From: Methanopyrus sp. SNP6
GTDB lineage: Archaea; JAADCQ01; Methanopyri; Methanopyrales; Methanopyraceae
Assembly (NCBI RefSeq): GCF_002201895.1
Contig: NZ_CP019436.1
Location: 1,215,867-1,279,866 of the forward strand
Length of the DNA stretch: 64,000 bases
Reading direction: 5' to 3'
Shown: positions 28,046-45,644 of the stretch, piece after piece
Layout: each line of letters opens with the position of its first letter
Position numbering within the stretch: the first letter of the stretch is position 1
The notes under the pieces: model-generated
What the model saw: the letters and a program-made list of their open reading frames with translations, nothing else
Told to the model about the DNA's origin: nothing
Database searches by the model: none
Program-made: the position numbers and the translations under genes

Positions 28046-30784
28046 ATGGCTATGACCGAAGGGTTCGAGGCGCTACCGGACGACGTACAGAGAGTGGTGT
28101 ACTCGAGGTTTAAGGAGCCCACTCCACCCCAACGCGTAGCGATACCCGAGATTATTGACGGGAAGAACGTCTTGGTAATAGCCCCTACCAGCTCCGGCAA
28201 GACCGAGACCGCGGTACTACCTGTATTCTCAATGGTACGTGAACTCGACGAGCCTGGAATCAAGGCGCTCTACATCACTCCGTTGCGGGCCCTTAACAGG
28301 GACATACTACGAAGGATTCGATGGTGGGGGGAAAAGCTGGGTCTCGAGGTCGCGGTGCGCCACGGCGACACCCCGCAGAGCGAGCGGAGGCGTCAGGCGG
28401 AGGACCCACCGGACGTACTGCTCACGACTCCCGAGACCCTCCAAGCTATACTACCGGGTAAGCGCATGCGTGAGCACCTCTCCCACGTACGTCACGTTAT
28501 CGTGGATGAAGTTAACGAGCTCGCCATGGACAAGCGCGGTGTACAACTGACGCTCGGACTGGAACGACTCGCCGAAGTGGCGGGTGATTTCCAACGTATC
28601 GGCCTCTCCGCCGCAGTAGGCTCGCCCGACCGCGTGGGTAAGTTCCTCGTCGGTGATCGCGACGTCGAGGTGTTGGAGATCGAGGCCGAGCGTTACCTGG
28701 ACGTTTCCGTAGCTCACCCGACTGGACCGCACGAGGTTAAGGAACGGCTGGAACTGATCCACGAGCTGGCGAAGGAACGTGACTCCGTCCTCGTGTTCAC
28801 CAATACCAGACAGATGGCCGAGCTACTCGCAACTCGTCTGAAAACTGAGTATGATGACGTTGAGGTGGAGATACATCACAGCTCAATATCGAGAGAGAAG
28901 CGCATGGAGGTCGAAAAAAGGTTCAAAAAAGGTGAGATCGACATCCTCGTATGCACCAGCTCACTGGAGCTCGGTATCGACATAGGTCACGTGGACTTGG
29001 TGATCCAGTACGGCTCGCCGCGTCAAGTAACACGACTCACGCAGCGAGTGGGGCGCGCGGGCCGTCGGCGTAAACGGGCTGAAGGTCTCGTGATAACGTC
29101 GAACCCCGACGATCTTGCGGAAGCTGCAGTGATATGTCGTCGGGCTCTGAAGGGATCCTTGGAGCCCACTGATATCCCTGAAGGTTGCTTGGACGTCCTC
29201 GCCCACCAGCTCGTGGGGTTGTGCCTGGACGGGCACCAAGTCACCATAGATTACACGCTGGAGGTGTTCAGACGCGCTTACCCATACCGCCACCTCGACG
29301 CTGAGACGCTCCGAGAGGTGGCCGAGTTCCTGGACGATATCGAGGTGCTCCGGGTGCGCGGTGACCGAGTGTACCGGACGAAGGACGCCTGGAAGTACTA
29401 CTACTCGAACTTGAGCATGATCCCCGACGAGCGACACTACAGAGTGGTTACGGAGAACGGTGGACACGTTAGCGTCCTCGACGAGCCGTTCGTCCTCGAG
29501 TATTTAAAACCCGGTATCAAATTCATCTGCGCCGGTAGACCGTGGATCGTGCAGGACGTGGATCATGACCGCTACGAGGTGTTGGTGACGCCGGCCGAGG
29601 CCGTGGAGGGCGCCATACCCTCATGGGTTGGCGAGGAGATCCCCGTCCCGTACGAGGTGGCGCGCGAGGTGGGGGAAGGGATCGGGCGGGTCGAGGCGGC
29701 GCTGGAGGAGGGGTTCACCGAGGCCGTCGAGGTTGCGGCCGAAACCTTCGGTCTAGGACGTCGAGAGGCTAAGGTACTAGCCGACCTAATCCGTAGACAG
29801 CGGGATCACTCATCGGTGCCGCTTCCAGGGAGGCCCGTCATCGAGGATCTGGGTGGGACCCTGGTTATCCACGTGTACGGTGGTACGAACCCCAACCGCA
29901 CCCTGGAGAAGGTCCTCGGGACTCTGATCTCGGGACGTCTGGGGACGACGGTCAGGACGTACTCGACTCCGTACAAGATCGTGATCTCGGCGGAGAAGCG
30001 GGCGGGACTCGACGCGGACCTCCTAGTGGAGTGTTTGGAGACGCTGCCTTCCGACGAACGCGGGTTCCACACCCTCACGCTCAGAATCGTCGAGAAATCC
30101 GAGGTCTTCAAGCGTCGACTGGTGCACGTCCTGAAGCGCTTCGGTGCGATAGAGCCGGACGCCGACTACAGGGACGTCTCACCACGACGTCTACTGAAGG
30201 CGTTCAAGGGGACGCCCCCGTACTACGAGACGGTCTCAGAAGTCGAGCGGGATCTCGACACCTCCGTGGCGTTCCGACTGGTGAAGGAGTTGGAGGAGAA
30301 GGCGGAGATCGTTCGAGTGCGTGACCCTTCCCCGTTCGCTGAGCACGTGTTGGAGGGACTCGGAGAGGTGGGGCGCGTGACCTCAGGACTCCTAGCCGCG
30401 CAGGTCGAGACGCTCAAGCGGGATCTGGAACGACGCAAGCTGTGGCTCGGCTGCCCGAACTGCGGCTGGCGTGGTCGACGCTCCGTCGAGACCGTCAAGG
30501 AGGAGGGTCTCGAATGTCCCGACTGCGGCGCCACGTACCTAATCGCCGCCAAGACAGAGGAGGGTCTAGAAAAGCTGCTGAAGAACTCCGAGCGCGCCCG
30601 GCGGGTGGCCGATCTGCTTGAGTCATACGGTGTCAAGGCTCTGGAAGCCCTCGCGGTGCCTGGTGTCGGGCCCGAGGCCGCGGCCAAGGTGCTCCGATCG
30701 ACCGGCGGACGTGAGCCACACTTCTATCGTGAGCTACTGCAGGAGCGCCTCCGTTACCTCCGCACCCGTCGGTTCTGGGACTAG
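28046..30784 (+). CDS. Lhr-type superfamily 2 helicase with zinc finger and helix-hairpin-helix
   Basis: A 912-residue ATP-dependent helicase. The core has the Q motif FKEPTPPQRVAIPEI, Walker A APTSSGKTETA at about 46-56, TPLRALNRDILRR (Ia), motif II VDEVNEL at about 153, motif V TSSLELGIDIGHVDLV and motif VI QRVGRAGRRRK. The winged-helix and Lhr-core parts follow, then a four-cysteine zinc finger (CPNCGWRG to CPDCGATY, about 802-830) and a helix-hairpin-helix (AVPGVGPEAAAKVLRSTG). Lhr proteins act in DNA repair and branched DNA processing. Motif II reads DEVN rather than the usual DEIH/DEVH. The start is ATG 28046 with CCGGGGTCA upstream. Confidence 0.92.
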   Translation: MAMTEGFEALPDDVQRVVYSRFKEPTPPQRVAIPEIIDGKNVLVIAPTSSGKTETAVLPVFSMVRELDEPGIKALYITPLRALNRDILRRIRWWGEKLGLEVAVRHGDTPQSERRRQAEDPPDVLLTTPETLQAILPGKRMREHLSHVRHVIVDEVNELAMDKRGVQLTLGLERLAEVAGDFQRIGLSAAVGSPDRVGKFLVGDRDVEVLEIEAERYLDVSVAHPTGPHEVKERLELIHELAKERDSVLVFTNTRQMAELLATRLKTEYDDVEVEIHHSSISREKRMEVEKRFKKGEIDILVCTSSLELGIDIGHVDLVIQYGSPRQVTRLTQRVGRAGRRRKRAEGLVITSNPDDLAEAAVICRRALKGSLEPTDIPEGCLDVLAHQLVGLCLDGHQVTIDYTLEVFRRAYPYRHLDAETLREVAEFLDDIEVLRVRGDRVYRTKDAWKYYYSNLSMIPDERHYRVVTENGGHVSVLDEPFVLEYLKPGIKFICAGRPWIVQDVDHDRYEVLVTPAEAVEGAIPSWVGEEIPVPYEVAREVGEGIGRVEAALEEGFTEAVEVAAETFGLGRREAKVLADLIRRQRDHSSVPLPGRPVIEDLGGTLVIHVYGGTNPNRTLEKVLGTLISGRLGTTVRTYSTPYKIVISAEKRAGLDADLLVECLETLPSDERGFHTLTLRIVEKSEVFKRRLVHVLKRFGAIEPDADYRDVSPRRLLKAFKGTPPYYETVSEVERDLDTSVAFRLVKELEEKAEIVRVRDPSPFAEHVLEGLGEVGRVTSGLLAAQVETLKRDLERRKLWLGCPNCGWRGRRSVETVKEEGLECPDCGATYLIAAKTEEGLEKLLKNSERARRVADLLESYGVKALEALAVPGVGPEAAAKVLRSTGGREPHFYRELLQERLRYLRTRRFWD

Positions 30785-31743
30785 ATCGGTAGGTAAGAGA
30801 GCCCGAGGAACGTCAGCAGAAGGAAGAACAATCCCGCAATCCCGACGGTCCCGATGAAAGGTACCGGTATCCCTATAGGAGGTGACGGATCCTCCCCGCT
30901 CTCCACACCGTTCAGTGGTGTCCGCGTCTCGACGTCTCCCGTCACCGGTGTGTCGTAGCGGATTCGGGTCACACCGCCGAGATCCAGGAACGGTTTGGAA
31001 ACCGCGACGGCGACGGGGTACCCTCCCAGAACGGCCTTCCACAGCTCTTCCGTGAACGCCACCAGGGAGTCGTCGGGTAGGCCGGTCAACAAGACGACCG
31101 TTAGGGTACGACCGCGCTTAGAGGACACGATAACCGTCAATGGAGAGATAGCGCCGGAGATTGCCGAGTACAACCTGTTCACGACCTCCACGGGCCCGAA
31201 GAACTCCAGGATTCCGGGGTGAAGGTTGGAAAGGAAGAGGCCGTAAGGGACCAGCAAAAGCTCCCCTACGTTGCTCGTGGACTCGTCGTCCACGACGAAG
31301 TATCGACTAGATCCCTCTTGAACGGCCCCTAGGACGAGTACCGCGTGGTACGCCGGAGGACGACTCAACAGCGAGACCACAGTTACCTCGAACACCTTCG
31401 AGACTGCATCCGGGCTCGCGATCGCCTGGAAGGCGTCGATGATGTCGAGGTTATCGTCGTCGTGTTCCCCCGTGGCCGAACTCTCGTACTGTAGTGGAGT
31501 CACGGGGTCTCCGTTCCACCATCCCATGGCGACACCTAAGTTATACAAGTCCACCGCGCACGCCTCCGCACACCAGATCCTGTCAACGCGCCCATCCCCG
31601 TCGATATCGGACCCAAAAGAGGTGTTCGGAGCATCGAACTCCGGGTCTAAGTAGTAATGACCGGAGATGAATCCTCCCACTCGAGCGTGAGCGGGCGTCA
31701 TCGCGATGGATACTGCGATTATTAGCACTAGGGTGGGCAACAT
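30781..31743 (-). CDS. Secreted, C-terminally anchored protein; possible Cys-His-Asp hydrolase
   Basis: A 320-residue protein with a clear signal peptide (residues 1-20, ending TPAHA) and a C-terminal membrane segment (about 298-318), so the body lies outside the cell. An acidic loop SDIDGDGRVDR looks like a calcium site. C58 and C62 in WCAEACAVDL, H133 in AYHAVLVLG and D152/D153 in YFVVDDES are ordered and spaced like the triad of transglutaminase- or papain-like enzymes, but I do not recognise the family. It overlaps the end of the convergent helicase gene by 4 bases. Confidence 0.75.
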   Translation of the reverse strand: MLPTLVLIIAVSIAMTPAHARVGGFISGHYYLDPEFDAPNTSFGSDIDGDGRVDRIWCAEACAVDLYNLGVAMGWWNGDPVTPLQYESSATGEHDDDNLDIIDAFQAIASPDAVSKVFEVTVVSLLSRPPAYHAVLVLGAVQEGSSRYFVVDDESTSNVGELLLVPYGLFLSNLHPGILEFFGPVEVVNRLYSAISGAISPLTVIVSSKRGRTLTVVLLTGLPDDSLVAFTEELWKAVLGGYPVAVAVSKPFLDLGGVTRIRYDTPVTGDVETRTPLNGVESGEDPSPPIGIPVPFIGTVGIAGLFFLLLTFLGLSYLPI

Positions 31744-31749
31744 TCGTGT

Positions 31750-32316
31750 TCACCTCTCGGGTTCGAAGAGCGCCAGATAGGACGTTCTCATCCCCGAGAA
31801 CAGCGTCCCTCGTCGGAGGACCTTTCCCTCCCCCCATACCATGCATATGCAGGATCGTCGCCAGCCGTCGAGCGCCTTGACAGCCACGGAGAAGGTCTCA
31901 GGCGTGACAGCGTTTAGCAGTATCGCGCGTCGCACGCGCTCGGCGAGGGCGAGGAGCACTTCTTCCAGCCGCTCGGAACCGGATACGACGGCGGCGTCCA
32001 CCTTGCCCACGTCCTCCAGGACCTCTGGGGCCCACCCGCGTACTATCTCTATACGATCCCTCAGGCAGAAGTCCCGAACGTTCCGCTCCAACGATCGGAT
32101 CGCTTCCTCGTTTCCTTCCACCGCGTACACGCGGCCCAGAGGTCCTACCGCCCGGGCCAGCTCGAGGGTTAGCGAGCCCGATCCCGCGCCGATCTCGAGG
32201 ATTCTCTCGCCCGGTCGCGGTCGAAGTACGGCCAGTACCGTCGCTTTCATCACCGGCTTGGTGGGGCCTGGGACACCCTTTATGACCAAGTCAGAGGGGT
32301 CCACGACATTGAACAC
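31750..32316 (-). CDS. cbiT: Cobalt-precorrin-6B C15-methyltransferase (decarboxylating), CbiT
   Basis: Corrin ring enzyme of the anaerobic cobalamin pathway that methylates C15 and removes the acetate carboxyl of cobalt-precorrin-6B. From GTG 32316 the product has 188 residues. The N-terminal GVPGPTKPVMKATVL is the CbiT hallmark, followed by the SAM-binding RPGERILEIGAGSGSLTLELA, AVEGNEEAI and a VNAVTPET-like motif (LLNAVTPETFSVAVKALD). A start at GTG 32304 is also possible. It lies head to head with cbiL; the two start codons overlap or nearly touch. Confidence 0.9.
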   Translation of the reverse strand: MFNVVDPSDLVIKGVPGPTKPVMKATVLAVLRPRPGERILEIGAGSGSLTLELARAVGPLGRVYAVEGNEEAIRSLERNVRDFCLRDRIEIVRGWAPEVLEDVGKVDAAVVSGSERLEEVLLALAERVRRAILLNAVTPETFSVAVKALDGWRRSCICMVWGEGKVLRRGTLFSGMRTSYLALFEPER

Positions 32317-32971
32317 TGGAGCACCCACCCTATACGGAGTGGGCTTGGGCCCCGGGGATCCCGACCTGCTGACTCGTAAGGCGGTTAAGATTATAAAGAA
32401 GGTACCTGTCGTGATGGTGCCCTTCGTAGGCGCGGAGAGTCGAGCCGCCAGGATAGTGCGCGCCGTCGACCCGGAAGCCACAGTGGTTGGTTACTACGCA
32501 CCGATGACCAGAGACCCGGAGGAACGTGATCGAGCGTACTCGAAGGCCGCTAAAACCCTGGCGAAACTGCTCGAGCGGTTTCACGAGGTGGCGGTCTGTA
32601 ACCTCGGAGATCCTACCCTATACGCCACATTCTGGCACATCGTGGAGCGGATCCCGCTAGAGGACTTCGAGATAGAGCTGGTCCCTGGGATTCCCGCGGG
32701 ACTCCTTTGTGCGGCCCGCATCGGCCGTCCCTTAGCGATGGAAAGTGATAAGGTCCTCATCTGCACTCGGGAACCGCCGGAAGACCTTGAAAGCACGGAC
32801 ACGGTGATACTCTATAAACCGACCCGGCGAGGCATCGAGAGGCTCCTCCGGAAGGGGTTCGAGGTCTACGCGTGCCGGGATCTGGGGTTCAAGGGAGAGC
32901 GAGTGGAGCGTGTAAGCGCGGCCGAGTTCGAGCCCAATTACCTGTGCACGATAGTCGCCCTCCGACCTTGA
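32309..32971 (+). CDS. cbiL: Precorrin-2 / cobalt-factor II C20-methyltransferase, CbiL
   Basis: SAM-dependent corrin methyltransferase that adds the C20 methyl group to (cobalt-)precorrin-2, the first committed step of corrin formation. The 220-residue protein starts near LYGVGLGPGDPDLLTRKAV, the family hallmark, and shows VAVCNLGDPTLYATFWHI and ELVPGIPAGLLCAARIGRPLA. TTG 32309 has GAGGGGT at 32294-32300. Longer upstream codons in this frame are the antisense of cbiT and can be ignored. The methyltransferase genes are about 5 kb from the cobN-like surface gene. Confidence 0.9.
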   Translation: MNTGAPTLYGVGLGPGDPDLLTRKAVKIIKKVPVVMVPFVGAESRAARIVRAVDPEATVVGYYAPMTRDPEERDRAYSKAAKTLAKLLERFHEVAVCNLGDPTLYATFWHIVERIPLEDFEIELVPGIPAGLLCAARIGRPLAMESDKVLICTREPPEDLESTDTVILYKPTRRGIERLLRKGFEVYACRDLGFKGERVERVSAAEFEPNYLCTIVALRP

Positions 32972-37230: not shown

Positions 37231-40200
37231 TCACCAATTCCACCCACGGAACTTCCACCTAAACCAGATGACCACAATCAAGGAAGTGACGAGTAATCCG
37301 ATCACCCACTCCCATATCATCTTGTGTGATGGCGCCGGGAAGCTTTCCCTTACCATGGTCACAGGGTTCGACCTCCTGACGGCGTTCGACCCGGGAGTGG
37401 ACTCTCCGCCCGCGTGTCTAGTCCTCACTAGTTCGTGAGTGAGCTCGGTCGTAACCCTTCCTCCGGAAGGTATCCGACCGTAAAAGACCTCACCAACCGT
37501 CGACACCACTGTCTTGCACATCGACTTAAAGTTCGATCCGACCACTGTGAGACCGATCCCTAGTGGGGATTTAGTGGACATCGACCGTTGTGATCTGGAC
37601 AGGTTACGTCGTCCTACCAGTGCTCGGGATGCCCAACTTTCGATCGCTTTGGCCACATTTGTCGTCGTAATCTCCACCGAGGTGATCCAGTTCCCCACAC
37701 TTCTGGTGGACTGCTCTGGCACATTATTATTGGAGTTCCTAGACGTAACTACCCTCGACGATGCTATCCCGTTAACAATCTTCGAAGCTATCCGTGGATT
37801 GTCCAGTGTGCGGTATGCCTTGACTATCTTCGGAATCATGTTCAAGACATCGTTGAGACCCAAGTATTCCGCCAAATTTCGGACGAACGGCACTGTAGAC
37901 GGGTTAGGACTCGTGTGGTGGCATGTGGATGGACCGTATCGGGCCGTAACCCCAGCCCAAGTCCTGATCAGGACCTCAAGGGTGTTTCGGTCAGGTCTCC
38001 ATAGACCTACACGTATCGCCTCCACTAGCCACGATAGTGTCGACTGTACCGCGGCCCATCCGTTCGGAGTGGTTGGCCTGTATCGTTCTAGAGCCGAAAG
38101 TACTGTCGACGCCACTTCTGTTAACAGCGTTTGAACCATCGGTCTGGCCTGAGCCATCGTCACCGCGATGCCGACGATATTCTGGACGCGCTTCATCACT
38201 TCGTGCCATCCCACATCCGGTCCGTGTGACATCAACGCCTTCCACCAGCTAGGGCTCAACAGTTCCGTTCTTACTTCGATCGCCAGTCGCTCCGCCAGTG
38301 TCTGGACGTGCGCGGTGGTCGGGTCGCGTGCGACTGTGAGAAACACCGTCGGCTCCTTCCCTCGGATCGACCTCACGTACGTAGCTATCCCGCCGATCCA
38401 CGAATAGTAATCGTTCACGTCTATCACGTTGAACGCGTTTACTACCTGATCGATAACGACGTCAATAGTGCCGGCCAGGTACCTGAAGATCTCCACTGCC
38501 CTAACGGCTGCCTCATAACCTTCCAGATCCTCCATACGCAGCTCAGGTCCGCTCGAATTACCTAGAACTGAGAAGGCGTACGCCACTCTGGACTCGAACG
38601 TCCTCACGATACGCTCTGAGAACCTTTCGTCTACCGACCCCGCTTTCGATACTCCCAACCCCTCAGTGAGTTCGGACCAGCCCATCTCCACTAACCTGTT
38701 AACACCAGTCCCCTGGACGTCACCTGGGGGCTCCCCGAACACCCCAGTGGCCGCCAACGGCTCTGGTACCCCGGATCTCAGGAGTTCTAAGTAGTGCTTC
38801 CTCCGGTAATTGTACTCGATGGGTTCTTCGGCTCTGGAGACCAGCCGGAACGCGGCCGCCAATAGCTGAACTACTGGTTCGATAGAATCCAATACAGCAG
38901 TACACAGCGCCACCACATCTATCCTCGGCCTGTTGATCCACCTACCGTCGACTTTCACCTTCAACTCGCTAATCGGTATCAACCTGATTCCCAAAACCTT
39001 TCCACCGTCCGGGTCCCACACGGGTTCGACACCAAGTAGGTACAGGACTTCAGCTATACCGAGTCCGCCGGATGTCAGCTCGTGTGAGGCGAAGAGGATC
39101 ACTGAAACCGTCTCGGGCCATCTGCCGTGTTCTCTGTAGTATCTGGCTAGCATGTCGTCTACCAGGCGCTTCGCGATCTCCCACGCCTCCGGCGTTGGGA
39201 GGGTATACGGGTTGAACGTTACACCGTTCCTACCGGTCGGGTAAGCTTTGGGATTCCACAGAGGTTCTCCGAAACCTCCCGTCGGGACATGGCCGCCCCT
39301 CAAGAAGTTGATCAGGCTGTCGAGCTCATATTCACCGGATTTGTACACATGAACGAACTCTCTGAATGCCTCGGCTATGAGTTTAATGATATTCTGGTCG
39401 TACTGATCCGTAGTCTTTAGTAGCCCTATTTCAGATAGAACTGATCGATACAATGCCAGCAAACTAGGTTTAAGCTGCTGCAGTATACTATCGGCTTTCG
39501 ACAGTAATGACGCGTCATCTTTCAACTCTCCCTCGTCCTTGAGTTCAACCCACTGCAACAGAACGGATCGCATGAATGGGTCCGTCCATATCCTGAGGAC
39601 GATCGATCGAAGAAGCTCGTACGTCCTCATCTTGACCTCATGATAAAAGTCCGGATCCTCGTCCGCCAACCTCCGAAACAGCTCGAGATCGGCCTTTGGG
39701 ATCAACCCCGAGGTGACCGCTAAGTAGGGAGCGAATTTCGGAGCGAAAAGCAGCGCGGCTTGATCTACTGCTACTCCTGTCGGGAGATTCCCTCCTATCA
39801 CGTGTAGACCGTAGAACACTTTCTCGTCCCGAAGTGCTAGCAGGTAATCGTGCAGGCCGTCGAGGAACTCCTCCAAGTGTCTTTTTACCCAAGATTCAGG
39901 GTCCTTCGGGGGACTCTCCCCGCGCTCCGCGAAGATAGACTTCACAACGTCCTCGAGGATCCCCAGGTCCCTCGTCTTCTTCAGGATCTTCTCCGCAATG
40001 AGTTCTCGCACGGTTTCGTCGTACACCGAGGAACTCACGTACTGCGACCACAACCTCTCCAGCTCCGCGTATCTGTGGAAGTCCCTGAAATATCCTGACG
40101 GTGGTGACGGATAAGTGATGATAACGGACCCGCCTCGGTACTTAGCCAACGTCCCCTCGCCAGGGTTACTTACGATGTAGAAGTACGCCTGGGGAACGTC

Positions 40201-42441
40201 CGGGAGCAGTAGGTACGTCCAGTCGGTGATCGTGAGCCCGCGGTCGTGACCCGGAAGGAACTCGAAAGTGCCGTGGGTTCCCACGTAAACTACGGCGTCC
40301 GCGTGGAAGACCTTACGTAGCCATTCGTACGTGGCGATGTACTGCCAGTGCGGAGGCAGTTCCCGGGAGTGGTACACTAGCTCGGGACTCCCCGACCAAC
40401 CACGGACTGGCTGCAGGACTACCGCTACATTGCCGAACCTGAGGGCGGGGACGAGGTACCGGTGGCCATCCGTCATGATTCCAAGATTGTCGGTCACACT
40501 CTTCCATGTTCTCAGGAATCCCTCGATCATTTCCTCCACGGTAGCTCTGGCCGCTTCGTACCGATCGGGATCCAACCTGCGGACGATGTCTAGGTACGCG
40601 TTCAGCCGCTTTACGACGTCTTCCTCGAACCATTCTCGGACGTTTTCGGCCGGAATCAGTTGGTCACGGGAGACGGAGCATAGCACGAACGAGCGACCGT
40701 CGAACCTTATCACCACATTTCCATCACGCACCTCGATTTCTACATCACGTCCGTCGACGTTTAGAGACCACTCACCGTACCCTCCCTCGTACAGATCGAA
40801 CATCCGTCGAAGCTCTCCCCTGGCCCACGGCCCTACGTTAGCGAGCAGCAGCACCGACCGACGTGGATCGTTAGGATCTATCGCTGAGGATAGCGCGTTG
40901 AACACCGCGACGAACACGTCCTCGAGGAACCGTGCCGTCTGCGAACTCTCTCTGTACTCCACGTAGAGTTCCCGAAAGAACCCAGTTCCTGGACCCAGAT
41001 CGAAACCTTCGCCGGCCAGCCTGGCCAGGATCCGCGCGAGACTTCTCGGGACGTCTAAATACGCCGCTCCCAGCTCCGAGCGTCCAGGGGGGTAGCAATA
41101 AACGACGAGCGCTACCCTCTTCTCACGATCCGGCAGCAGCCTGAGTCGGAGCAGGTGTTCGATCAGCCTCCCGAGATCGTCCAGTGTCCCTGGTAACAGC
41201 ACTGGCTCATCGTCCTTCCCGTTCAACCACAACACACGGTACCAGAAGGACCCCTCCATCTCGGAACCTAGCTGCACCTGGTAGGTCCACTCGAGTGAGG
41301 GTCCCGATTTATTGGTCACGTACTCCCCCAGCCCCATGCTGGCGTCCCCGGTGAACGGGAACACCACCTGAATCATCGGTACGTTCAACCTGATGACGGC
41401 GTACTCTGCCGGTTTCGGGAAGTTCAGTGTGAACGCACGAACACTGATCACGGCCTCCACGCGCTTGCCCTGCTTTTCCAGCTCGGAAAGTATCTCGAAG
41501 GGTTTCACGAACGACGACTCGCAGAAGACGGCGACGGTCCTGACTCCGTACCTCCTCGTGATGCCGTCTAACGCCTCCGTGAGCCGTAGGATCGCTTTCC
41601 TCCTAGGACTAACGGCGTCGATCCCGTGGGCGAGCACCAGAACTAGGTCGTTTGGAAGATGAGACGCGAACGCACTCAGATTCATCCCATGAAGGGTATC
41701 TATTACCCAACTCGGTAACTTCCGCTTGTATCCGAAGAGTACCACGGTCCCCTTGACTTCCCCGCGAGCCAGACGTTGTAACCAACTCCGGAAGGTCACG
41801 ATGTCGGGGCGTGGAATCCCATCTATCCATCCGGTCCCAGGGACGTAAGCTGAGAGGACAGTCCTGGAGATCGTCCTAGGCGGTTCCACGGCGTCCGTCG
41901 GGAAGGATGGATTCGCTAGCCATAGTAGGAACGTCACAAGGGCGCGCGTATCTCCCGCCGCTAAACACAGCCAGATGTGCGCCGCGACGGCCACCTTGGA
42001 CTTCACGGGCCGACCGCGGATGACGACCAACGCGCGCTCCGGATCGGACGTCGCAACCACGACCACGCGCTTCGTTGAAGCCAGGGTTTCTGCCAGCACG
42101 TCGAGGTCGTCTAGGGCCGCCCCCAGTGTCCTCTTAGACAACTCTCGGACGAAGGACGCTGGAACCGTACCCATACGCTGGATCACCAGTACATCTGCTG
42201 ATACAACGTCCTTCGAGATCTCCTCCCAGTTTAAGTTTCCAATGCTTACCGGATTCTTCGGAATCCGATGAACGTGGACTTGGACTCCCAGCTCCTTACC
42301 TACTTCATCGGCGTTCGGTAGCGGTGTGGTACTCAGCACCGTTATCTCGAAGGCGGAAGCGGGGCCGGAATATAAAATTTGAATTAATACGATTGACATG
42401 AAGAATAACACAGCTAACGTGGTTCGTAAATGTTTTAACAT
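37231..42441 (-). CDS. Secreted, membrane-anchored CobN-type chelatase large subunit
   Basis: A 1736-residue protein of the CobN / magnesium chelatase H family. CobN-type proteins bind the tetrapyrrole and insert Co or Mg with the help of AAA+ subunits. Family marks: GTHGTFEFLPG at about residue 720, YIVSNPGEGTLAKYR, LPTGVAVDQAALLFA, YPTGRNGVTFNPYTLPTPEA at about 1069, LFASHELTSGGLGIAEVLYL and DYYSWIGGIATYV. Residues 1-30 form a signal peptide ending PASA, and a helix near the C-terminus (WVIGLLVTSLIVVIWF) acts as an anchor, so the chelatase body is outside the cytoplasm, away from ATP. A low-complexity Ser/Thr/Arg-rich segment precedes the anchor. Its ligand and metal are unknown. Confidence 0.9.
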   Translation of the reverse strand: MLKHLRTTLAVLFFMSIVLIQILYSGPASAFEITVLSTTPLPNADEVGKELGVQVHVHRIPKNPVSIGNLNWEEISKDVVSADVLVIQRMGTVPASFVRELSKRTLGAALDDLDVLAETLASTKRVVVVATSDPERALVVIRGRPVKSKVAVAAHIWLCLAAGDTRALVTFLLWLANPSFPTDAVEPPRTISRTVLSAYVPGTGWIDGIPRPDIVTFRSWLQRLARGEVKGTVVLFGYKRKLPSWVIDTLHGMNLSAFASHLPNDLVLVLAHGIDAVSPRRKAILRLTEALDGITRRYGVRTVAVFCESSFVKPFEILSELEKQGKRVEAVISVRAFTLNFPKPAEYAVIRLNVPMIQVVFPFTGDASMGLGEYVTNKSGPSLEWTYQVQLGSEMEGSFWYRVLWLNGKDDEPVLLPGTLDDLGRLIEHLLRLRLLPDREKRVALVVYCYPPGRSELGAAYLDVPRSLARILARLAGEGFDLGPGTGFFRELYVEYRESSQTARFLEDVFVAVFNALSSAIDPNDPRRSVLLLANVGPWARGELRRMFDLYEGGYGEWSLNVDGRDVEIEVRDGNVVIRFDGRSFVLCSVSRDQLIPAENVREWFEEDVVKRLNAYLDIVRRLDPDRYEAARATVEEMIEGFLRTWKSVTDNLGIMTDGHRYLVPALRFGNVAVVLQPVRGWSGSPELVYHSRELPPHWQYIATYEWLRKVFHADAVVYVGTHGTFEFLPGHDRGLTITDWTYLLLPDVPQAYFYIVSNPGEGTLAKYRGGSVIITYPSPPSGYFRDFHRYAELERLWSQYVSSSVYDETVRELIAEKILKKTRDLGILEDVVKSIFAERGESPPKDPESWVKRHLEEFLDGLHDYLLALRDEKVFYGLHVIGGNLPTGVAVDQAALLFAPKFAPYLAVTSGLIPKADLELFRRLADEDPDFYHEVKMRTYELLRSIVLRIWTDPFMRSVLLQWVELKDEGELKDDASLLSKADSILQQLKPSLLALYRSVLSEIGLLKTTDQYDQNIIKLIAEAFREFVHVYKSGEYELDSLINFLRGGHVPTGGFGEPLWNPKAYPTGRNGVTFNPYTLPTPEAWEIAKRLVDDMLARYYREHGRWPETVSVILFASHELTSGGLGIAEVLYLLGVEPVWDPDGGKVLGIRLIPISELKVKVDGRWINRPRIDVVALCTAVLDSIEPVVQLLAAAFRLVSRAEEPIEYNYRRKHYLELLRSGVPEPLAATGVFGEPPGDVQGTGVNRLVEMGWSELTEGLGVSKAGSVDERFSERIVRTFESRVAYAFSVLGNSSGPELRMEDLEGYEAAVRAVEIFRYLAGTIDVVIDQVVNAFNVIDVNDYYSWIGGIATYVRSIRGKEPTVFLTVARDPTTAHVQTLAERLAIEVRTELLSPSWWKALMSHGPDVGWHEVMKRVQNIVGIAVTMAQARPMVQTLLTEVASTVLSALERYRPTTPNGWAAVQSTLSWLVEAIRVGLWRPDRNTLEVLIRTWAGVTARYGPSTCHHTSPNPSTVPFVRNLAEYLGLNDVLNMIPKIVKAYRTLDNPRIASKIVNGIASSRVVTSRNSNNNVPEQSTRSVGNWITSVEITTTNVAKAIESWASRALVGRRNLSRSQRSMSTKSPLGIGLTVVGSNFKSMCKTVVSTVGEVFYGRIPSGGRVTTELTHELVRTRHAGGESTPGSNAVRRSNPVTMVRESFPAPSHKMIWEWVIGLLVTSLIVVIWFRWKFRGWNW

Positions 42442-42471
42442 TCCCTTGAGTACCCCTGAGCCGAAGTGAGG

Positions 42472-42487
42472 ACTATCTAAATAGATA
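42472..42487. promoter_or_regulatory. Shared divergent promoter element (near-palindromic TATA)
   Basis: TATCTAAATAGATAAC sits in the 86-base gap between the divergent CobN-like and toroid genes. ATCTA and TAGAT pair as an inverted repeat around AA. The box is 31 bases from the CobN-like start on one side and about 41 bases from the toroid ATG on the other, so one element could direct transcription both ways. Confidence 0.5.
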
Positions 42488-42527
42488 ACCGTTTCGGTGG
42501 GGGTGGGAGGGTCTGCGCACGATATCG

Positions 42528-43952
42528 ATGACGGCCCTTATCGTTGCCCTGATGGTGCCGACGTCCGCGTATGCGGTTAGTTGGGGAGAGATCATCGACA
42601 AATCGGTTAGGTTCTACTTCGAGATCGATAAGGTAAGGGAACTTGGTGTACCCGTTAAGGAGTTAAAAATGGTTCAGGAAGGCGATTCACTGTACTGGGA
42701 AGGTAAGTTCGGAAGATCTAAGTGGGAGACGTCAGGAGAGGTAATTTACGGCAACATGTCGGCCTTATCTGGGATATATCTTGGACTACTTAGCGGAGAA
42801 GTAACACCGAAGACGTGGCCCAAACCAGAACGATCTAGGTTTGAGAAAGGTATCACCACCGGACTAGCTAAGATTCTATCACTTCAACAAGAAGATGGTG
42901 GTTGGGGATGGAAAGTGGTTTTAACTGAAGGTAAAACTAGATTTCCATCTGGTAAGGGTCACGTCCTGCGTACTTCTCAGGTGTTAGTTCGAGTGTTAAT
43001 ACCGGCACTGAGGTTGAACATTAAGAACGTAAATTACGATGGTACTACCTACGACGTAGTTGAACACGCGCGTTCAGCTGTGAGGTTTCTGATCGACCAG
43101 CAGTTGGAAGACGGTGGATATAGCGCCAACAAAGAGTGGTCCACGACCGGAGATCCACTGTACACTGGATGGGCATTGCGTGCGCTGTGCGAGGCATACC
43201 GGTACAGGGACCTTCTTAAACTCGACGACGCGACCGTCCAACAGGTAAAAGAGGCGATCCGTAGGGCGGTTGACTGGTTACTCTCTCACCAGGAGAGAGA
43301 AGGTGAGCACGTCGGGCTGTGGAAGATGGAGTCTTCAGCCATCATGGGGTCCTCGTACGCACCACCTTCGGAAGCCCAGGTAGTGCTCGCGTTGATCGAC
43401 GCTTACTCGATATCGGAGGAACTGGGGCTGAATAAGGCCGAGCTTAAGGAGTCGATAGACAGGGCGTTGGAGGCTATCGTGGACTGGGCGCTCAAATACA
43501 AGGACATTTCAGTAGTGGAGTTCGACGGGAAGAAGGTCTTAGGGTGGGCCTACTCGTCGACGCGACTGGAGAGTTGCGGTCCGTACCTCGGGTACACGGC
43601 CCTCATAGCGGCCACGCTGAAGTTGGCGCGGGAGTTAGGCCTTGGATCAAGAGCCGTAGATAAGATGAAATCAGTCGGAGTAACATTGGAGAACGAGGCG
43701 GAGTGGGTAGCTCACGAGTGGAGGGAGACTGACGGGATCGGATACTTCCCGTACCCGAACTCGGAGATGTTCAAGTACGTGACACCGTCGAGCCAGCTTT
43801 TCGGACTGATCTGCGCGGTGGCGTTCTCGCACCCCGAAGTGCTGTTGAAGCGCACTACGGCGGACGTCTGGAAGTTGGTGCCTAAAACGAAAACGTCGAA
43901 GGTTCCTGTGTGGCCGGTGTTGGCTTTGCTATTCGCACGACGACGCCGCTGA
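42528..43952 (+). CDS. Secreted alpha/alpha-toroid protein (prenyltransferase/terpene-cyclase-like repeats)
   Basis: A 474-residue protein with an N-terminal signal peptide (ALIVALMVPTSAYA) and a long helical body with repeats such as LQQEDGGWGWK, IDQQLEDGGYSA and YTGWALRALCEAY, typical of the alpha/alpha toroid of squalene cyclases and prenyltransferases. I do not see the DXDD cyclase motif. It ends with TSKVPVWPVLALLFARRRR, a short hydrophobic stretch and arginines like a cell-surface sorting tail. ATG 42528 is the first standard start; CTG 42513 would add five residues and a better charged n-region. It is divergent from the CobN-like gene. Ligand binding in the toroid is an inference. Confidence 0.8.
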   Translation: MTALIVALMVPTSAYAVSWGEIIDKSVRFYFEIDKVRELGVPVKELKMVQEGDSLYWEGKFGRSKWETSGEVIYGNMSALSGIYLGLLSGEVTPKTWPKPERSRFEKGITTGLAKILSLQQEDGGWGWKVVLTEGKTRFPSGKGHVLRTSQVLVRVLIPALRLNIKNVNYDGTTYDVVEHARSAVRFLIDQQLEDGGYSANKEWSTTGDPLYTGWALRALCEAYRYRDLLKLDDATVQQVKEAIRRAVDWLLSHQEREGEHVGLWKMESSAIMGSSYAPPSEAQVVLALIDAYSISEELGLNKAELKESIDRALEAIVDWALKYKDISVVEFDGKKVLGWAYSSTRLESCGPYLGYTALIAATLKLARELGLGSRAVDKMKSVGVTLENEAEWVAHEWRETDGIGYFPYPNSEMFKYVTPSSQLFGLICAVAFSHPEVLLKRTTADVWKLVPKTKTSKVPVWPVLALLFARRRR

Positions 43953-44144
43953 CTCCTTCCTTTTATCCGCACTTCTCCCTAACAAGCGGCCGCTGGTAAA
44001 ATAGGTCCGATAATTTCTCCAGTCACCGTGTTCACAAATTTGAATTACTATTTCTCACATACAGTGTAGAAGTTTAGTTGACGAAAATTCATATTATTTT
44101 AATTTAAAAAAATCTGTATGGGCTCCCGAGTCGGGGGTCAGGCA
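43953..44144 (+). promoter_or_regulatory. AT-rich intergenic region with promoter for the CbiX-like gene
   Basis: About 190 bases, the most AT-rich stretch in the window. ATATTATTTTAATTTAAAA at 44091-44109 is a strong TATA region. A start site about 25 bases later (near 44125-44135) lies after the ATG at 44118 and before the TTG at 44145, which supports the TTG as the real start. A pyrimidine-rich run CTCCTTCCTTTT at 43954-43965 follows the toroid stop and may end transcription. Confidence 0.6.
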
Positions 44145-45644
44145 TTGAGAACCCACGCGCTCATAGTCGGACTGCTGGTGGCACTGAGTCCAGTTACGGC
44201 CAGCGAAAGTCCTAAAATCGCCGTAGTGGTGCCGTATCACGGCAGTTACGATCCGCACTGGGTCTACATGGCTCACGAACTTCCAAGTAAAGTCCAGGAG
44301 ATTTTGAGTGTGACCTACGACGAATACAAAATCCAAGTGTACCCAGGCAGTTTCGAAACCTACGACACGACCATGGTACAGCTTCAGGGCGGTAAGGAGT
44401 ACGTCATTCATCAGGAGGAAGTGAACACGGGTGAGGAGGTTCTGAAGACAGAGCTCGGCTACGCTCTCAAGCAGGCTGAGGAGTTCACGAACTCCGGTAA
44501 GGATGGTCTGATCGTTGTGCTACCGGCTTTCGTGAATGAGGGAGGACAGCACCAATGCGTGGAAATCCCGGAAGTTATCGATATCGTGCTCGGAGATAAG
44601 GTACCTAAATGCGCGATCCACTACGAGCCATTCGGTATCACGGATTGGGACCGCAAAAACGACATCGGTATCGTACCGGAACTGTTCTTCATGAACATCC
44701 AAGAAGAGGCCGATAAGGACCTGGTAGGACCGAACGGACAGGGTGACCCCGAAGACGTGTTCTCGACGTACAAGGGCAAGAAACTCCTGGATTTCCTGAG
44801 AGACCACAAGGATGAGGTCGGTCTCCTCGAGTTAATGTTCGGTACTCTACGGATAGGTTACTGGGACGATTTCAAGGCGAACGCAATGTACGTGCTGCGT
44901 GGTGTCGCCGAGAGGCTCGGTGACTTCCTGGGGACGACAATTCCGGTAGGTGAGGTCGACTGGGCGTTGAGGAACCCGTTCGTAAAGGAGGGTAAGGCTT
45001 ACTTCTTCGCGTTCCAGAACCCGGAGATCGGTCCGGAGAAGTGGGAGAAGTCGCGCTGGGAGATCCGGTACGAGCAGTTCCAGAAGTTGATGCAGAGTCT
45101 CTGCAAGCATGGCGTTAGGTACGTGATCGCGTTCCCGTACACCACAGTGACTGGTATCACAGATCGCAAGCTGTTCGAGGGTAACCCTGAGCACGGCCCC
45201 GAGGGTGACGAACCCGAGGCTTATGACTACTCGGAGGCTATTCTGCGGCACTTCGGTGCGGAGTTAGTGGCGGAGACTGTGGCCGATGTGAAGAAGTACA
45301 CGTACGTACAAGGCGGTCGGAAGAAGACTCGAACGGTGTACATCAACACGAGAATTTACAGGATTCCAAAGGATAAGCTGGGCACTGACGCCGACATGTA
45401 CGTGATTTACGTGAGGCGCGGTCTGTTGGATGCTCCGAATGCTGTGGAGAAAGTGGCCCGTGTGTACGCCAACTACATCGCCGTTCACCTGCCGACGTGG
45501 ATGATGGAGTACGAGGCGGCGAAGCAAGGAGTTGGGAAGCACAATCAAGAAACTGGCGCTCAAAGGGAGAGGAAGAAACTTTCAGTGTATCCCTTGATGC
45601 TCGCTCTGGCGTTAGCGGTATGCCGACGGCTCGGGTGCCGCTAA
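44145..45644 (+). CDS. Secreted CbiX-like chelatase-fold protein
   Basis: A 499-residue protein from TTG 44145 with CGGGGGTCAGG upstream. A signal peptide (1-19, VALSPVTAS) is followed by a domain like class II cobaltochelatase CbiX/CfbA: VVVPYHGSYDP (H32), ALKQAEEFTNSGKDGLIVVL, then FVNEGGQHQCVEIPEV (H136, E140). The two histidines match the metal-site positions of CbiX and its GGHxxxDIP motif. The rest (about 150-470) is unassigned. The end SVYPLMLALALAVCRRLGCR is hydrophobic plus arginines, like the toroid protein. Known CbiX enzymes are cytoplasmic; this one is exported. Metal or tetrapyrrole binding is inferred, not proven. Confidence 0.78.
   Translation: MRTHALIVGLLVALSPVTASESPKIAVVVPYHGSYDPHWVYMAHELPSKVQEILSVTYDEYKIQVYPGSFETYDTTMVQLQGGKEYVIHQEEVNTGEEVLKTELGYALKQAEEFTNSGKDGLIVVLPAFVNEGGQHQCVEIPEVIDIVLGDKVPKCAIHYEPFGITDWDRKNDIGIVPELFFMNIQEEADKDLVGPNGQGDPEDVFSTYKGKKLLDFLRDHKDEVGLLELMFGTLRIGYWDDFKANAMYVLRGVAERLGDFLGTTIPVGEVDWALRNPFVKEGKAYFFAFQNPEIGPEKWEKSRWEIRYEQFQKLMQSLCKHGVRYVIAFPYTTVTGITDRKLFEGNPEHGPEGDEPEAYDYSEAILRHFGAELVAETVADVKKYTYVQGGRKKTRTVYINTRIYRIPKDKLGTDADMYVIYVRRGLLDAPNAVEKVARVYANYIAVHLPTWMMEYEAAKQGVGKHNQETGAQRERKKLSVYPLMLALALAVCRRLGCR

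Follow-up and report, generated by a model that had tools for sequence, protein, structure and literature searches.

The window, a stretch of 64,000 nucleotides from the 1.42-Mb, single-contig genome of Methanopyrus sp. SNP6, contains three neighbouring genes for large proteins of predicted surface location, which may constitute one of five chelatase modules that this archaeon uses to collect metal outside the cell. Open reading frames for all three were confirmed where the initial annotation had placed them: a CobN-family protein (class I chelatase large subunit) of 1736 amino acids (aa) on the reverse strand (37231-42441), an alpha/alpha-toroid protein of 474 aa on the forward strand (42528-43952), and a probable two-domain class II chelatase of the CbiX/ferrochelatase fold, 508 aa in length, also on the forward strand (44118-45644). 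The CobN-like and toroid genes do share a short divergent promoter region (42442-42527, 86 bp), in which a TATA-box-like CTAAATA is the only part conserved among orthologs; a perfect inverted repeat at 42474-42487 was considered as a divergent operator and rejected because it is not conserved. Each of the three proteins has a hydrophobic N-terminus with a candidate site for signal cleavage, and a tail of hydrophobic and basic residues at its C-terminus; these features recur in their orthologs, so that the surface location proposed earlier holds as a prediction from hydropathy and conservation. The co-occurrence of the trio in relatives was also borne out, with synteny in four of the five Methanopyrus genomes (gene order kept in the SNP6 genome, G000, and in G001 and G002; split over two contig ends in G003), and only G004 lacks the CbiX-like gene. 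In G001 (L031:8534-10384), the toroid ortholog and the N-terminus of the CobN-like protein each lie in two frames, representing either a frameshift or a sequencing error.

The assignment of the 1736-aa protein to the CobN/Mg-chelatase superfamily is certain at the level of sequence family. PF02514 matches the chelatase core (residues 295-1487) with an E value of 1.3e-168 (563.5 bits; cut-off 24.5), and among proteins of solved structure its relatives are ChlH, CobN and HmuS. The NCBIfam equivalog level for the CobN of CobNST is not reached (341-343 bits, where the best CobN models require 1248-1619). The N-terminal segment (residues 1-30; 42352-42441, reverse strand) resembles a signal peptide (hydropathy 3.1, with a candidate AXA-type cleavage site, ASA) and is also found in the G002 ortholog and in the paralogs, while a transmembrane anchor is predicted near the C-terminus (residues 1709-1727; 37261-37317, reverse strand; hydropathy 2.15), with a basic tail after it that terminates in GWNW. 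By hydropathy, the protein is predicted to be anchored at both ends, as is HmuS, unlike the cytoplasmic CobN that works with a CobS/CobT AAA+ partner; the genome's own AAA+ candidate is a distant, weak ChlI/D-like gene (838 aa) at a separate locus (G000:C1:490782-493025). Among solved structures, the exported homologs from other methanogens match HmuS best (507 vs 443 bits for CobN; 372 vs 359 for ChlH), and exported CobN-like proteins stand apart from cytosolic ones in a tree (SH-aLRT 98); this tree came from a rapid search, has flagged long branches and excludes Bacteroidota HmuS/BtuS. Genome contigs queried with a single CobN-like protein gave no match.

The window locus is one of five of its kind. 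The SNP6 genome encodes five long exported CobN-like proteins (the window protein and paralogs A to D) and one cytosolic CobN of ~1,200 aa (C1:3714), and a toroid gene lies beside every one of the five exported ones; the search for toroids in this genome found none beyond these. The CobN-like and toroid genes are divergent in the window module, where the third partner is CbiX-like, and in module A (C1:162k; 80 bp apart), where it is a long, coiled-coil-tailed protein. They lie on the same strand in module B (C1:439k; 64 bp) and in module D (C1:56k; 14 bp), the latter with an ArsP-type permease as third partner. In module C (C1:744k), the arrangement is divergent, with the toroid gene second after a gene for a 436-aa protein with a HEETH motif. 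Given our own estimate that positions no more than 3 kb from exported CobN-like genes make up ~4% of the genome, the probability that all four toroid paralogs would be located there by chance is about 3e-6. G001 contains the same five CobN-toroid pairs and one further toroid elsewhere, and no toroid partner was found beside the exported CobN-like genes of the other methanogens searched; the Methanopyrus expansion adds the toroid as a surface partner not seen elsewhere. Several observations concern the surroundings of these modules. The exported 436-aa protein between CobN-like C and its toroid (L019:11517-12827) has a zinc-peptidase-like motif, and an exported M28 peptidase is encoded nearby (L019:2567-3682). 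A family of exported coiled-coil-tailed proteins (e.g., L016:5096-6847) has members adjoining module A in other Methanopyrus genomes as well as the cytosolic CobN gene (L015:1312-3229). A further CobN gene is split, with its N-terminal half on the forward strand and its C-terminal half on the reverse strand, head to head (G000:C1:885.1-888.5k, L017:9139-12476; L037:5086-8328); both halves occur in G000, G001 and G002, with one half each in G003 and G004, so the arrangement may reflect a genuine CobN of two subunits and not gene breakage.

The toroid fold of the 474-aa protein is supported by its structural model. The AlphaFold model (mean pLDDT 77, pTM 0.81) retrieves complement TED domains, drimenyl diphosphate synthase and alpha/alpha-barrel glycosidases with Foldseek at a probability of 1.00, and weak Pfam hits also support the fold. 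The terpenoid, prenyl or methanophenazine ligand initially suggested for the toroid was rejected, as the nearest folds belong to proteins of various unrelated functions and offer no specific evidence for it. The toroid C-terminus has the form of a sorting signal (VPVWP-hydrophobic-RRRR). A [KR]xVPVxP-hydrophobic-RRR tail is common to many exported proteins of this genome, which also encodes an archaeosortase/exosortase-like protein (PF09721; G000:C1:667.1-667.6k, L080:7137-7634), and this protein may use the shared tail as a sorting signal.

Alignment of 40 CobN-like proteins and comparison with the published HmuS active site (PMC12583661) locate two catalytic regions in the window protein. 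The first, VYVGTHG (GTHG, residues 721-724; 40270-40281, reverse strand), contains the equivalent of HmuS His-538, which is retained in the window protein and in types A, B and C and replaced by Arg in type D. In the second (IDVNDYYSWIGG, residues 1340-1351; 38389-38424, reverse strand), the HmuS motif DHxxEFMGG with His-1209 is replaced by VNDYYSWIGG. At the head/neck, where HmuS has its Met-79/His-254-Gly-Arg heme site, the head domain of the window protein diverges too far for a dependable alignment. The residue at the His-1209 position is Asp in the window protein and in most exported methanogen proteins, as in aerobic CobN, and His in HmuS and in cytosolic archaeal CobN. The cytosolic archaeal CobN at L015:3672-7277 contains an HmuS-like DHxxEFxGG motif (IDLDHYYEFLGG) that most exported proteins lack. 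Straight after the chelatase body, ahead of the linker and anchor, lies the Cys/His motif TCHHTSPNP (residues 1506-1514; 37900-37926, reverse strand), which is shared by the window and A types, reduced to CGC in C, and represented in D by a Cys-rich tail. Variants of this motif (CCHHTC, CCDCSC or CCCPxxC) occur in the exported CobN-like proteins of methanogens, and none was present in the four cytosolic CobN proteins checked. The HmuS segment aligned at this position is SCSGFVCDN, and a similar SCSGSICGD occurs in one exported f34 protein. The motif is a possible membrane-adjacent metal relay and offers a concrete site for mutation.

A partner system for the exported proteins emerges from their distribution. 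DUF2162 (PF09930) and MotA/TolQ/ExbB (PF01618) exceed their cut-offs in the same 17 of 149 genomes, and these are exactly the genomes with a CobN-family match in a reading frame exceeding about 1,330 aa; the 17 represent four families and seven genera, and are not 17 independent events. The PF02514 survey scored no more than four candidates per genome, so that paralog counts for other genomes are lower bounds. In the f3, f27 and f34 methanogen genomes, the exported CobN-like gene directly adjoins DUF2162 and ExbB-type genes, and DUF2149 (PF09919) was found in such clusters at the three loci checked. Methanopyrus has a single operon with all three families (DUF2149, ExbB-type and DUF2162; C1:364.7-367.6 kb, L072:8708-11599), in which the DUF2162 protein has 410 aa and about nine transmembrane segments and an additional 233-aa protein has no Pfam match. 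Because this operon is unlinked to the CobN-like genes, the CobN-ExbB partnership in Methanopyrus is deduced from the linkage in other methanogens; on this analysis, the operon is probably one ion-powered engine shared by the five modules. The hmuYRSTUV genes of Bacteroidota likewise include a CobN-like HmuS, an ExbB-type channel and DUF2149 (PMC10434189), and an archaeal DUF2149-TolQ linkage was noted earlier without a function (PMC9425974). The authors of the HmuS study considered the function of the many archaeal CobN/HmuS homologs unclear, and noted that archaea do not have complete hmu operons (PMC12583661). The coincidence in 17 of 149 genomes now links these homologs to a set of partners and to an energy source that can be tested.

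The third gene of the trio is specific to Methanopyrus. The CbiX-like gene is found in G001, G002 and G003 at 83, 68 and 60% identity, and the notion of a widespread partner was rejected, as it was recovered from 3 of 100 other genomes, all Methanopyrus, plus one marginal 84-residue match through stops. The 508-aa protein itself has no family profile match, and a sequence-only profile comparison with the PDB yielded nothing meaningful. In one of four orthologs, however, PF01903 (CbiX) scores above the Pfam threshold (26.5 vs 22 bits, E=8.1e-6) within the would-be second domain, and another ortholog has a weak match to it in the first domain. Alignment to CbiX with hhalign gives p=0.009 for domain 1 and 0.0025 for domain 2, values that are weak taken alone, and places an HGS motif (residues 41-43; 44238-44246, forward strand) on the CbiX GHGS; domain 1 also has an invariant His145. 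In the structural model, built on a three-sequence alignment and of moderate confidence (pLDDT 68), ferrochelatases make up many of the top fold matches, with probabilities of up to 1.00 but E>0.001. The orthologs and the model together suggest that the protein is probably a very divergent, exported, two-domain class II chelatase. The cytosolic CfbA is encoded by a separate gene (144 aa) in the same genome.

Methanogens need large amounts of nickel and cobalt, and their acquisition is poorly known. The reading favored here, to which we assign a probability of about one half, is that the island is one of five HmuS-like surface chelatase modules that scavenge metal, most plausibly from metallo-tetrapyrroles, with power from an ion gradient. 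The initial link to metal and tetrapyrrole chemistry is supported, and three elements are added to it: the family of five CobN-toroid pairs, the partner operon with its ExbB-type gene, and the Cys/His motif near the membrane. Extracellular F430, corrinoids, or debris resembling siroheme or heme would be the metal source. Held at the membrane, the CobN-like protein would bind the ligand in its central cleft and remove the ion (nickel or cobalt being favored), as HmuS takes iron from heme, while the toroid would dock beside it and present or hold the ligand. The class II chelatase-like protein may act as a second, module-specific handler of metal or tetrapyrrole. By way of the Cys/His motif, the released ion would reach the DUF2162 permease. 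The ExbB-type channel and the DUF2149 protein would link the cycle to the ion gradient, and all five modules would draw on this one engine. The earlier argument that a new mechanism is required since there is no ATP outside the cell loses its force: HmuS, a protein with a membrane anchor at either end, carries out heme demetallation outside the cytoplasm without an AAA+ partner (PMC12583661) and has ExbB-type and DUF2149 partners, so the puzzle has a precedent, and the Methanopyrus operon could supply ion-motive energy. A more elaborate and more tentative version is a modular archaeal metal harvest (possibly nickel from F430 or cobalt from corrinoids), in which five CobN-like dechelatases with their own toroids and module-specific partners share the DUF2162/ExbB/DUF2149 engine, much as TonB-ExbB serves many receptors.

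Several points weigh against the favored reading. The window protein has Asp in place of HmuS His-1209, and by that residue is no HmuS; its profile also scores a little higher against CobN (336 bits) than against HmuS (303). The D paralog has lost both active-site residues, so catalysis cannot be a property of all five modules. In Methanopyrus the ExbB operon lies apart from the modules, the cytosolic CobN enzyme ordinarily depends on an AAA+ motor, and what HmuS requires in vitro is NADH, not an ion gradient.

That the D paralog nonetheless retains its Cys-rich tail and toroid partner favors the foremost alternative, in which the modules capture free ions (Ni2+, Co2+) or small metallophore complexes and the CobN fold is a surface metal receptor feeding an ExbB-DUF2162 transporter. 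The Cys/His tail motif fits this alternative, as does the CobN1 of Methanothermobacter marburgensis, a protein that may be any of the paralogs of that species and is present at a high level only under nickel limitation (PMC12350162). Since motif 1 and the CobN core are kept in most paralogs, and the presence of an additional, class II chelatase-like protein suggests a macrocyclic ligand, free-metal capture is nevertheless the less likely explanation. The Methanosarcina barkeri 'BtuS', an exported CobN-like protein known here from its published description, rises on pyrite and Fe(II)/cysteine (PMC10846266); the responses of CobN1 and BtuS fit metal acquisition but are no proof for these paralogs. 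The surface location and the toroid fold could also reflect the capture and import of a whole tetrapyrrole (corrinoid or F430) without demetallation, the toroid being a transcobalamin-type binder; human intrinsic factor and transcobalamin are B12-binding alpha/alpha toroids. This explanation is unlikely, given that no transcobalamin structure is among the 50 listed fold matches of the toroid, that DUF2162 is annotated only as a 'predicted transporter', and that corrin genes are encoded by Methanopyrus itself. A structural or adhesive role at the surface, in which the chelatase and toroid folds are reused and no ligand chemistry takes place, would suit the long, variable linkers, the coiled-coil stalks of partner proteins and the shared sorting-like tail. 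The conserved catalytic His, the Cys/His motif and the phyletic tie to the ExbB-type channel make this proposal improbable. Metal insertion at the surface (e.g., the making or repair of an extracellular cofactor, or detoxification of metal into an exported tetrapyrrole) draws on the second active-site residue being Asp, as in true CobN, and not His, as in HmuS, but is the least probable of all, as neither ATP nor an AAA+ partner is expected outside and the sole ChlI/D-like gene is weak and at a separate locus.

The cbiT (31750-32481, reverse strand) and cbiL genes (domain within 31841-32971, forward strand) cited earlier as neighbours are real, but their proximity carries no weight, since unrelated genes (a DNA polymerase gene and a radical-SAM gene) lie between them and the trio, and the other four CobN-toroid modules sit in unrelated neighbourhoods. 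Another exported protein (30781-31743; 320 aa, with a C-terminal transmembrane segment), encoded ~5.5 kb from the CobN-like gene, has no family match, and a pseudomurein ligase-like gene, scoring just below the cut-off of its model, adjoins the trio region.

Compared with known systems, the 508-aa protein probably resembles CbiX/CfbA, CbiK and ferrochelatase, to judge by the two-domain fold of its moderate-confidence model, its HGS motif and the PF01903 matches of its orthologs, and differs in its predicted export, in its length, in its unusual insertions and in its restriction to Methanopyrus. The toroid has its overall fold in common with complement TED, terpene cyclases and glycoside hydrolase (GH) families, at an identity of only about 12-17% and with no diagnostic active site identified. 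Aerobic CobN (CobNST) and ChlH/BchH share the PF02514 core and GTHG motif with the window protein, and CobN also its second-site Asp, whereas the window protein is predicted to be exported and anchored, has the Cys/His tail motif and has no adjoining AAA+ gene. The HmuS/BtuS systems of Bacteroidota are similar in the extracytoplasmic CobN fold with N- and C-terminal anchors and no AAA+ motor, in the motif-1 His and Cys-containing membrane-proximal tail, and in the ExbB-type and DUF2149 partners, which are linked in related methanogens and present but unlinked in Methanopyrus; the window system differs in its Asp for His-1209, in having no HmuY/HmuR, and in its toroid and class II chelatase-like partners. 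At least some exported CobN-like proteins of other methanogens have fused DUF3344/CARDB domains, unlike the window protein, with which the homologs compared here share a clade, export signals, the DUF2162/ExbB/DUF2149 partners and the Cys/His motif.

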